Of a stretch of DNA of 37,703 bases, positions 340 to 13,928 are shown piece after piece. The notes beneath the pieces were generated by a model. That model ran no database searches. It was not told the DNA's origin and saw nothing but the letters and a program-made list of their open reading frames with translations. A program made the position numbers and the translations under genes. Numbering within the stretch: position 1 is the stretch's first letter; the number at the start of each line of letters is the position of its first letter. Source of the stretch: Candidatus Omnitrophota bacterium (lineage in GTDB: Bacteria; Omnitrophota; Gorgyraeia; Gygaellales; Profunditerraquicolaceae); contig JAMWCI010000006.1 of NCBI GenBank assembly GCA_023818655.1, positions 1 to 37,703 of the forward strand, read 5' to 3'.

Positions 340-545
340 GAGGTTTTTAGCGTGTATTAGGCGAGACAAGCGGACAAACCTCATCTTATAAACTTATTGA
401 TTTTGGACGTAAGTGGCTGGCGGTCGCCCGCACCCGACCGCCAGCCACAGCAAAGCCGCACACGCCTTAAAATTAGCAAGAAGCGAGCGGCCAAGCGAGC
501 GCCAATGCAAGCGAGAGACGGGAGCGCCCCCAGGCGCGGTGCAGT
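340..545. other. GC-rich non-coding block with a 14-bp hairpin and AAGCGAG repeats
   Basis: The gene-free stretch 139-591 includes this block, which is visibly richer in GC than its AT-rich surroundings. GTGGCTGGCGGTCG at 413-426 pairs perfectly with 435-448 around an 8-nt loop. Downstream, AAGCGAG recurs at 481-487, 493-499 and 509-515, followed by a short GC-rich inverted sequence near 523-540. No convincing reading frame or known RNA family was recognised. It could be a structured RNA, a terminator or a mobile-element end. Confidence 0.4.
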
Positions 546-591
546 TAATCATATTTATTGACAAAATGGGTTCGGAATTTTAAATATCTCG

Positions 592-759
592 ACCCCAGAT
601 TTTCATTTTGCATTTCAGCGAGAATCTTGAAGTCAGAAGTATAAGAAACTAAAAGGGTTTTATTGAACAACTTAAGGTTAGATACAGTCCTGAGCAAAAA
701 ATCACGCAGGGCTTCGAAATTTGCCTCGTCTGCGATGTAACTGGCTTAGTGAGCAAGAG
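592..759. repeat. Left arm of 168-bp inverted repeat
   Basis: This arm pairs with 1404-1571 in inverted orientation, with position p matching 2163-p. I count 4 mismatches in 168, all in the outer 45 bp; the inner ~120 bp are identical. On the minus strand the arm encodes the same recombinase C-terminal tail (…EANFEALRDFLLRTVSN…) as the right arm on the plus strand. The outer limit at 592 matches the point where the right arm enters the 3' end of tRNA-His. Confidence 0.9.
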
Positions 760-1570
760 ACGCAAACGTCCTCTCTCTTACAGTAACGTCCACCGTATAT
801 TGACTAATCCTTTCTATCTTAGCCTCTTTGAATATAAAGGCGAGATTTTCCAAGGTAAGCATCCACCTATAATAGAAAAAGATTTATTTGATAAGGTACA
901 AGAAATTTTAAAATTCAGAAGCAGGCCATCCTTAATTAAAAAACATTATTTTGTTTTTAGGGGGTTAATAAGTTGTGCTGAGCGCGGACGCCAAATTACA
1001 GCTGAAATTCAAAAGGGACATCGTTATTATCATTGTGGCAAAAAGCGTGATCTCTGTCCGCAGTCACGGGTTTTTATTAGAGAGGAAAATCTCGCCCAAC
1101 AGATCAAAGAGGCAATCTTAAAGGTTGCCTTGGATGATCGGGCTTTTTCCTATATGATGGATGAGTTAAACCGGGAAATAACTTTAGCTAACGCTGAGAA
1201 GGTTCATAACCGAGTATCCGCTGAAATTAAGAATCAGGAAATTGAGGAGCAGCTAAAACGCCTGCTTAATTTGTTAGTGCGTAGAGTTATTTCTGAAGAA
1301 GAATATAAGCGGGAAAAAGCCGAGTTTGTAAATAAGAAGTTCGATAATTTGGATGGGGATAACCCTGACTGGGACTGGCACAAACGGTTTAAAAACTTTC
1401 TAACTCTTGCTCACTAAGCCAGTTACATCGCAGACGAGGCAAATTTCGAAGCCCTGCGTGATTTTTTGCTCAGGACTGTATCTAACCTTAAGTTGTTCAA
1501 TAAAACCCTTTTAGTTTCTTATACTTCTGACTTCAAAATTCTCGCCGAAACGCAAAATGAAAATTTGGGG
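749..1570 (+). pseudogene. Large serine recombinase, C-terminal remnant
   Basis: The open frame 749-1417 (222 aa) starts at a GTG. It holds the middle and C-terminal parts of a large serine recombinase: the recombinase-domain motif PLSYSNVHRILTNPFY then YKGEIFQGKHPPII, a recombinase zinc-ribbon region with a weakened pattern (ISCAERGRQ … YYHCGKKRDLCPQS), and a coiled coil (about residues 150-195). The N-terminal catalytic resolvase domain (about 150 residues with the active serine) is absent. The frame stops at TAA 1415-1417, but the same frame continues as a recognisable family C-terminus (SYIADEANFEALRDFLL … SNLKLFNKTLLVSY) to the edge of tRNA-His. The gene is therefore doubly broken: beheaded, and interrupted by a stop. 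The first codons lie inside the left inverted-repeat arm. It is almost certainly not an active recombinase by itself. Confidence 0.85.
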
Positions 1571-1571
1571 T
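1404..1571. repeat. Right arm of 168-bp inverted repeat
   Basis: Inverted partner of 592-759. It contains the recombinase 3' end including the TAA stop, and its last six bases overlap the CCA-side end of tRNA-His (1566-1571). Confidence 0.9.
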
Positions 1572-1645
1572 GGGTGACGGGGATCGAACCCGCAAAACCT
1601 CTAGAGCCACAGTCTAGCGCTCTGACCAATTGAGCTACACCCACC
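1566..1645 (-). tRNA. tRNA-His (GTG anticodon)
   Basis: A complete cloverleaf on the minus strand. The acceptor is GTGGGTG paired with CACCCAC, with the extra 5' G (-1) opposite C73 that is diagnostic of tRNA-His. The anticodon stem CTAGA/TCTAG encloses loop CTGTGGC, giving anticodon GTG. The T arm contains GGGTTCGATCCCC. CCA is encoded. The 3' end abuts the recombinase remnant, as expected for a tRNA used as an integration site. Confidence 0.95.
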
Positions 1646-1651
1646 AGAAAT

Positions 1652-2113
1652 CTAACACCAATGAACGATACAATGGCAATTTCTACAAAGCCATTCTAAA
1701 TTTTCTATTTTATTATTTTTTCTATTACCGTCTTTATGGTGAACAGTCAGCACTCTTTTATCAGTAATCCCGCACTGATTACATTTTTGGGGTATCCCTG
1801 CCCTCTTCAATAAAGCGCGGTAAGCATTCTCCCCGGCAATCCAATTCGGAGCATTTACGCCACAGCGGACATTCTCGTTTTCCCAAGAACAATGACAAGA
1901 TACCGAACAAAAGAATTTTTTACTCTCTGAATTCCTGAAATCTCTAGGTGTTCGCCATATCTCTTTACCACAATAATCACATTTAACCCATCTGCCTTTT
2001 ATTTGGCCTTTGGTGCGGCATTTTATAGAACAAAACTTCCCCCATCCTTTATGCGCATAAAAAGGCTTAATATAAAATTCTTTGCCACAAATTAGACATC
2101 TCTTCTTAACCAC
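1652..2113 (-). CDS. HNH endonuclease-like zinc-finger protein
   Basis: 153 aa, GTG start. Two N-terminal treble-clef-like zinc knuckles (CLICGKEF…CSIKC at about residues 7-32; CDYCGKEIW…CSVSC at about 45-73) precede an HNH motif: CNQCGITD, then TVHHKDGNRKNN, then WLCRNCHCIVH. The paired CxxC, the HH dyad and the Asn-rich segment are the HNH nuclease core. This layout is known from homing-type and mobile HNH proteins. The stop codon lies 6 nt upstream of the 5' end of tRNA-His, on the same strand, so tRNA and nuclease may share a transcript. No partner gene for restriction or packaging is seen. Target and role are unknown; a selfish or element-associated nuclease is the likeliest reading. Confidence 0.8.
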   Translation of the reverse strand: MVKKRCLICGKEFYIKPFYAHKGWGKFCSIKCRTKGQIKGRWVKCDYCGKEIWRTPRDFRNSESKKFFCSVSCHCSWENENVRCGVNAPNWIAGENAYRALLKRAGIPQKCNQCGITDKRVLTVHHKDGNRKNNKIENLEWLCRNCHCIVHWC

Positions 2114-11271: not shown

Positions 11272-11374
11272 CAACGATTAGAAGTGACGATATATTTATT
11301 TTCTTGGATTGAAAAAATTAATTCTGACCCCATTTTGAAAATTAATTCTGACCCCATTTTGTGACCCCATTTTG
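11272..11374 (+). repeat. Dispersed repeat, copy A (with a partial internal triplication)
   Basis: This copy begins CAACGATTAGAAGTGACGAT and ends in AATTCTGACCCCATTTT, which is present twice in full (11320-11336, 11344-11360) and once in part (11362-11374). Copies B (13451-13511) and C (15605-15666) share the same order and orientation. The 493-bp gap 11192-11684 that contains it shows no other feature I can support. Confidence 0.7.
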
Positions 11375-11684
11375 TAATTTTTATGAAAGTAAAACAATAT
11401 TCATTTTTTAATTTATTCCTTTCTTACTAAATTATACTACAAAAATATCCTGCCGTTACTAAGAATTTCTTTTGAGGCCGTACAAATTTCCTCCTGTTTA
11501 TTTTCCTTATCAAAACTTTTAACTCTACAGGCGATATGGGGCTATTGTAAGCTAACGCCATGGTCAGGTATTTTTTGATAACAGCTTGACGAATGGCAAG
11601 TAATACAACATAGCCGCTTTTAAACTTATCCGGGATTAAGAGTTAGTGCAATCTATTTCCTTCAGAGATACAGGTATTCTCTGA

Positions 11685-13518: not shown

Positions 13519-13928
13519 TGGTGGAGGTGGGCGGAATCGCACCGCCGTCCTTAAACAATCGGATAAGAGCCGCTACATGCTTAGTTTATCTTTTCTGCTT
13601 AATCCTCGGTACTCCGGTAAACAGGATTGCCGAAGCCGCAGCCTTTTATCATCTCGTCTTCCGCCCAAAGGCAAAACGGAAAACCAGCCTGTTACCGGCT
13701 CAAACCAAGGCCACAGGCAAACCCTGGATTGAGGCCTTCCTGCTTAGTGAGGAAGGACTGCGAACGTCGGTACGCCCGCTGGGACCATTGCTGGTCTAAG
13801 CGAGTTTACCGAAGCAGACGTTAGTCTGTTTGCGTTTATTTTTTGCAAGGATTGTTAACGCGGCCAACCCTGCGTCCGCGGCATGCTGCTTTTACCCGGC
13901 TTATCTAAGTCGAGCCTAATTCACCCCC
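13519..13928 (-). ncRNA. ssrA: Transfer-messenger RNA (tmRNA)
   Basis: About 410 nt on the minus strand. The 5' end GGGGGTGA…GGCTCGAC and 3' end GCGATTCCGCCCACCTCCACCA form the tRNA-Ala-like acceptor and T arm (GGTGCGATTCC, encoded CCA). The middle has pseudoknot-rich GC helices and the region CCTTGCAAAAAATAAACGCA, which resembles the E. coli context just before the resume codon. The tag frame is unclear. A frame from GCA at 13846 gives AKNKRKQTNVCFGKLA and stops at TAG 13796-13798; the GCA at 13833, which aligns best with E. coli, opens a much longer frame. It lies directly downstream of smpB, its protein partner in ribosome rescue. Open frames overlapping this RNA are not genes. Confidence 0.93.

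Follow-up and report, generated by a model that had tools for sequence, protein, structure and literature searches.

The 37,703-nt stretch analysed here (the window) carries, close to its left end, what is almost certainly the decayed recombinase end of an element inserted by a large serine recombinase at the 3' end of a tRNA-His gene, in agreement with the decayed tRNA-targeting recombinase recognized in a preliminary description of this DNA. Intact relatives very probably share a layout of two arcs, a recombinase arc and a cargo arc, with one full attP staying beside the recombinase. There is equally little doubt that the whole recombinase arc is able to fold as one strand, through its arms and a series of nested helices that abut one another. 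As a whole, the data are best explained by a tRNA island with two arcs, a folding recombinase gene and, in the window, a deletion derived from that fold, a reading to which we assign a probability of about 0.7.

In the window, two inverted copies of 168 nt, at 592–759 (minus strand) and 1404–1571 (plus strand), are separated by a spacer of 644 nt and are 97.6% identical. Measured inward from the outer end, their four mismatches, previously described as lying near the outer ends, are 7, 21, 26 and 35 nt away, i.e., all within the outer 35 nt, which leaves an inner stretch of 133 nt without any difference. Apart from these two copies, the arm sequence is absent from its own genome (1.57 Mb, 147 contigs). 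A chance origin of the arms was rejected on the basis of 98% identity over 168 bp and conservation at 38 further loci. The right arm, which extends into the tRNA, was once the 3' end of the recombinase gene, and the left arm is the inverted copy of this right arm. ORF 749–1417 matches part of the Recombinase domain and, weakly, a zinc ribbon (Pfam). The loss of the catalytic domain, already proposed, was confirmed, as Pfam finds no Resolvase domain in this ORF; with PF07508 also partial, the window copy is a remnant. The surviving part (760–1414, plus strand) corresponds to the rest of the Recombinase domain, the zinc ribbon and a coiled-coil region, and is 66% identical to residues 191–486 of the recombinase of genome G029, in which PF00239, PF07508 and PF13408 (Resolvase, Recombinase, zinc ribbon) are all found. 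Besides, the TAA said to truncate the C-terminus (1415–1417, plus strand) replaces a CAA (Gln) of relatives and is thus a premature stop. Since the catalytic domain and the promoter are lost and the TAA cuts the rest, the window copy would be unable to move alone. The same missing domain makes inversion of the 644-bp centre, suggested earlier, unlikely in this dead copy; a flipped orientation was seen in other copies only.

The target gene, tRNA-His (GTG), lies at 1566–1644 on the minus strand and its 3' half constitutes the B half-site. Its last 6 nt (ACCCCA, 1566–1571, minus strand) form the right att core and are covered by the right arm, so that the outer limit of the repeat does coincide with the tRNA 3' end, as had been noticed. 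A left att core, ACCCCA, occurs at 592–597 on the plus strand, inverted relative to the right one. As the window opens with the first base of contig C15, just 591 nt are known outside the left arm. They include a cargo-side arm (413–591) made of a GC-rich hairpin (413–448) and a segment named X, which corresponds to the second inverted pair (IRb) in intact islands and has stretches of about 80% identity in L036, L023, L047 and other loci. A T-loop-like motif of the P' half-site, GTTCGGA, is located at 570–576 (plus strand), 25 nt from CCA as compared with 21 nt in the tRNA. Positions 449–595 are 92% identical to positions 819–964 of contig C47 of the same genome. Further out, the start of a Cro/C1-type helix-turn-helix (HTH) gene, cut by the contig end (1–138, minus strand; Pfam HTH_3, E 1.7e-11), represents the first cargo gene. 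On the other side, an HNH-type ORF with a TRASH-like segment (1652–2113, minus strand) starts just past the 5' end of tRNA-His; it is conserved beside tRNA-His in genomes G029 and G033, with 68–74% identity.

Relatives were gathered by searching the family, the order and the phylum, all sequences being metagenome assemblies. Inverted arms around the same serine recombinase, mostly intact, were found at 38 Omnitrophota loci besides the window. Hence, the comparison of the tRNA-His locus in relatives, put forward as a check in the preliminary description, identified the arms as a conserved part of the element. The arm pair consists of the recombinase's own 3' end, reaching about 6 nt into the tRNA, and of its inverted copy upstream of the start. 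Arm-bearing loci target tRNA-His, -Ser, -Ala, -Asp and -Pro, and one more lies 177 bp from a tRNA-Arg. The arm covers the last 6 nt of the tRNA at most tRNA-linked loci, and 8–10 nt for Ala and some Asp loci; as it takes in the tRNA 3' end, the att core is tRNA-specific. Arm lengths are mostly 90–162 bp, with shorter arms at L102 and L116 (33 and 36 bp) and a weak one (74%) at L058. Three full-length recombinases (L024, L036 and L023), which differ by about 20% from the window across the arm region, repeat their own 3' end upstream in inverted orientation, over 135–137 bp and with 99–100% identity. L024 and L036 sit at tRNA-His. At L023 (2156–2220), the recombinase arm adjoins a decayed tRNA-His-like sequence, and an intact tRNA-His lies 4 kb away.

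At 21 of 23 loci, the two arms were more alike than either was to the arms of any other locus (medians of 0.976 within and 0.46 between loci), which indicates that the arms of a locus evolve together. In the phylogenetic tree, the arm-bearing recombinases all fall into one supported clade (99/98). Its member scored as armless, L117, ends 63 bp upstream of its gene, and several other sequences also end before the arm. G083 was rejected as an armless exception, its arm region being a run of N, and L106, matched only up to residue 342, has the appearance of a broken copy. No arms were found around the sister recombinases located at tRNA-Gln, -His, -Glu, -Leu, -Asp and -Asn. Among phages and plasmids, only distant recombinases were recovered, below 60% identity throughout and at about 22–30% among the matches listed; viral contigs yielded two distant recombinases only (42% and 28%) and nothing for the Ser type.

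The X segment, outside the upstream arm, repeats the T-loop motif of the tRNA (GTTCRAW) at 25–26 nt from CCA instead of 21 nt in the tRNA itself (23 and 18 nt, respectively, for Ala). In X, the motif is thus displaced outward by 4–5 bp relative to the tRNA; it is weak or absent in X at L057, L058 and L075. In a Listeria phage integrase, the motif bound to the zinc domain lies 5 bp nearer the centre in attB than in attP (Rutherford 2013, PMC3783163). Because the T-loop motif is shifted in the same way, X plus arm looks like an attP and tRNA plus arm like an attL. A second copy of X occurs at the far end of the island, 12.4 kb away in G120 and 8.8 kb away in G033, and the second inverted pair also revealed the far ends of the G236 island and of two G222 islands. 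X and its hairpin-rich extension constitute this second pair, which surrounds the cargo and spans 330–470 bp: 468 bp with 99.6% identity in G120, about 420 bp (88%) in G033, about 330 bp (87%) in G236, and 469 and 374 bp in the two G222 islands. Where measured, the two inverted pairs overlap at the core only. As they meet at the att core, each island has an attL, a full attP and an attR. Five islands with both ends were obtained (4.7–12.5 kb), namely those of G120, G033 and G236 and the two of G222, and in all of them attL and attR are in direct orientation at the island ends. In G033, a terminator-like hairpin opens the sequence beyond attR and would directly follow tRNA-Ala in the empty site.

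According to this layout, the integrated order would be tRNA, core, [arm, recombinase, arm], core, [arm, cargo, arm], core, chromosome, the recombinase arc lying between inverted copies of one att half-arm and the cargo arc between copies of the other. The predicted excised circle would contain two identical attP in opposite orientation, either of which could be used for integration. The recombinase is presumably active and the circle presumably exists, and contig C47 points to the probable far end of the window's own island.

Several observations concern the cargo-side arms. Those of L081 (850–1316) and of the window (413–591) are full of GC-rich hairpins, and in G120 a folding energy of -182.7 kcal/mol is predicted for 468 nt. 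Pieces related to the hairpin-rich arm of the window are scattered in the same genome, on C47, C127 and C140. A search of the hairpin-rich region with Rfam at gathering scores returned no known RNA family. At L107 (G248:C2, 1462–3935), an arm-bearing recombinase is accompanied by a second inverted pair of 97 bp around about 0.7 kb only, and the nearest tRNA is 177 bp away.

With respect to orientation, the 3' end of the recombinase points toward the tRNA in about 38 assessable loci. Flipped copies were found in G064 at tRNA-Ser and in the window's own genome at tRNA-Asp; the latter (L043, 13710–14973, contig C123) is a further recombinase of this clade, truncated at the contig edge. At L025, the 3' end abuts X, which fits either a flip or a circle, and X-like flanks occur on both sides at L066. 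Two identical attP sites would lead one to expect equal orientations, and the data depart from that expectation: flips amount to about 3 of 41, with a probability of 5e-9 under equal orientations if loci were independent, which is not fully so. Both flip states are known from different genomes only, not from one locus within one population. The skew may result from selection or from a later bias, e.g., read-through from the tRNA promoter. Since the two-attP layout predicts equal orientations and the data break this prediction, a force acting on orientation can be sought.

The recombinase gene itself is self-complementary. Between the arms, 153 perfect inverted pairs of at least 14 bp were counted over 34 loci against 0.05 expected from a codon-order shuffle. 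For the coding sequence alone, 20 genes of the clade gave 92 pairs of at least 12 bp against 1.6 expected under synonymous shuffling that kept protein and codon use. The same shuffle revealed no clear excess in nine sister recombinases (1 pair, 0.5 expected), 15 cargo genes (4 pairs, 2.4 expected) and 12 chromosomal genes (0 pairs, 0.6 expected). Among pairs of at least 13 bp, none of 530 within-locus comparisons cross, whereas a third would be expected to do so at random. As the loci are related, none of these counts stands for independent events, but the excess is still present inside single genes. This nesting is well illustrated by L052, with helices P2 (198–211/1542–1555), P3 (229–250/841–862) and P4 (860–878/1523–1541): the arms, P2, P3 and P4 abut in a junction, P3 enclosing the catalytic half of the gene and P4 the rest. 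Similarly, four helices form a nearly gapless four-way junction in L071. The P4 motif is an inverted match of 17–19 bp with constant spacing in L024, L023, L025, L036, L052, L089 and L096. Helix sequences vary by subclade, and both strands of P4 changed in step in L057 and L058 relative to L024. Consensus folding gave internal helices with 93–94% Watson-Crick cells, and double changes exceeded those obtained with re-dealt partners (20 vs at most 14; 13 vs at most 10) as well as with slid partners.

From these nested pairs, we infer that a single-stranded DNA stage may occur. It is quite conceivable, at somewhat less than even odds, that the element passes through such a stage and that the inverted att copies then pair into one duplex attP. 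More tentatively still, these loci could be regarded as a class of islands in which the recombinase gene, folded as single-stranded DNA, also serves as a structural body, the paired att copies act as attP and codons are selected to keep the fold. Serine recombinases cut both strands, so that a folded single strand would be an awkward substrate, the cutting of which would cap chromosome ends. A literature search retrieved no description of such a layout or of a full-length foldable recombinase gene, with subscription journals thinly covered and this absence accordingly weak.

Another possible account, about which we are doubtful, is that of an ordinary double-stranded element whose inverted arms are two attP allowing insertion or flipping either way in the manner of the inverted FRT sites of the yeast 2-micron plasmid, gene conversion keeping the arms alike and pairing being a by-product, e.g., of template switching in replication-fork hairpins. 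Indeed, islands with attL and attR resemble normal serine-integrase products, flipped copies exist, concerted arms fit gene conversion and a wobble bias is absent. However, this account explains neither why self-complementarity is limited to the recombinase gene and spares cargo and sister genes nor the lack of any crossing pair, and equal attP sites predict the equal orientations that the data contradict.

It is improbable that the fold acts in RNA instead, the recombinase mRNA being silenced by a structure in which its 5' leader is paired with the middle and the end of the gene. This would explain the position of P3, and in several subclades the leader just upstream of the ribosome-binding site does pair with linker codons. 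RNA helices, however, tolerate G-U, whereas G.T and A.C mismatches are almost equally frequent in near-perfect helices (36 and 32) as well as in the arms (17 and 18); the wobble-pair test accordingly assigned no strand. These frequencies favour DNA rather than RNA as the folding strand, or homogenisation of the paired strands. Besides, the outermost stem stops at the att core and not at a transcript end.

Under the reading of a gene that folds as one strand, the truncated window copy can be explained as a product of the fold. Its 168-bp left arm consists of a normal 135-bp arm (592–726) followed by a 33-bp extension (727–759) that matches P2 and P4. This extension reproduces the opposite arm without a mismatch and is joined to the gene inside the P4 motif, where GGCTTAGTGAGCAAGAG (743–759, plus strand), assigned from the inverted motif of relatives, represents the 5' strand of helix P4 in the linker codons together with the deletion junction. 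Synthesis on the folded strand would have run past the end of the left arm and copied the opposite arm through the P2 and P4 strands; the nascent strand would then have rejoined the gene at P4, removing the promoter and the catalytic domain (the P3 branch) in one step. Such a one-step deletion agrees, at a defined junction, with the earlier idea of a fold-back event at GCAAGAG/CTCTTGC, a complementary motif that indeed accounts for the missing front half.

Could the joint at 759/760 instead be an assembly or amplification artefact, with the gene intact in the cell? The contig end is 592 bp away, the arms are long repeats, the joint has a match of 17–19 bp, and contigs of relatives often break or show runs of N at this place. 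Nevertheless, such a match is below the usual assembly word size, and the TAA testifies to independent decay. Moreover, no other part of the genome yielded the catalytic domain of this recombinase, the three Resolvase hits being on C66, C123 and C140. We consider an artefact quite improbable, and the case already made against an amplification chimera stands and has gained much strength. Finally, a meeting of two tRNA-targeting elements in opposite orientation, as first proposed to explain two inverted copies of one 3' end, is very unlikely, as single recombinase genes carry the same arms at 38 other loci and the left side has neither a second tRNA nor a second gene, even though tandem insertion seems to occur on C47, where the remnant of another recombinase 3' end comes after a P' arm.

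Island cargo mostly consists of restriction or other defence genes. Examples are an MjaI-like restriction enzyme with a methyltransferase and a small HTH gene (G222:C2), a BfiI-like restriction enzyme with a methyltransferase and an OLD-type ATPase (G120), type II methyltransferases (G033), and a type III restriction-modification system with a Dsr1-like protein (G029); the G222:C4 island encodes an ATP-grasp protein and others without clear role. Small HTH genes adjoin the cargo arm in L113 (70 aa) and L036 (73 aa). Given that the truncated HTH gene of the window occupies the same place, restriction-modification cargo, of which none is seen in the window, is likely there too. On C47, a copy of the window X segment (97% over 77 nt) precedes the apparent remnant of the second 3' end, suggesting an accumulation of elements at a single tRNA. 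In L037 (G033:C8, 4364–16659), several decaying hairpin-rich arms alternate with small cargo (toxin-antitoxin-like and restriction genes), as if islands were stacked at one tRNA-His.

These islands share with known large serine integrase islands at tRNA genes the common Resolvase, Recombinase and zinc-ribbon domains, the attL/attR ends and a motif displaced by 4–5 bp between attB and attP. They differ from them in that the recombinase gene is self-complementary and has a second complete, inverted attP beside it, and in their two nested inverted pairs. In phage CTXphi, which integrates as single-stranded DNA through XerCD, the site used arises by pairing of two inverted att sites (PMC3089051), and here too inverted, nearly identical att copies (arms and X pairs) are able to pair on one strand. 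In CTXphi, however, the tyrosine recombinases of the host exchange one strand pair and the sites are about 90 bp apart, whereas here a whole gene, itself folded, separates the sites and encodes a serine recombinase. Membership in the CTXphi type was rejected on the latter ground. As in the attC sites of integron cassettes, the site could form by single-strand folding and the cargo gained is of defence type; unlike integrons, in which IntI is a tyrosine recombinase, these islands have no attC and one recombinase each, and an integron was ruled out by the serine recombinase gene. An insertion sequence was rejected as well, the core being inverted at the ends of the recombinase unit, with a direct copy at the far end of the cargo. 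The circle of the yeast 2-micron plasmid is split into two arcs by FRT inverted repeats holding recombination sites. The two arcs of the islands are similarly set by inverted repeats with recombination sites; the yeast element differs in being an autonomous plasmid with a tyrosine recombinase and no tRNA integration.

Should the fold prove functional, the same stretch of DNA would hold both a protein message and a precise single-strand architecture, and defence islands of a large uncultured phylum would move by a route undescribed for serine recombinases. A truly folded body would make them a serine-recombinase counterpart of the CTXphi and integron sites, with the gene as a structural part. 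In addition, the clade provides natural candidate att pairs for several tRNA genes, of use to those working with serine integrases.

Elsewhere in the window, tandem short repeats of the AATTAATTCTGACCCCATTTTG type occur at 11321–11375. A tmRNA (13519–13928, minus strand) has an unusual predicted tag peptide of 29 residues with an LPH end, the frame of which may be misread.
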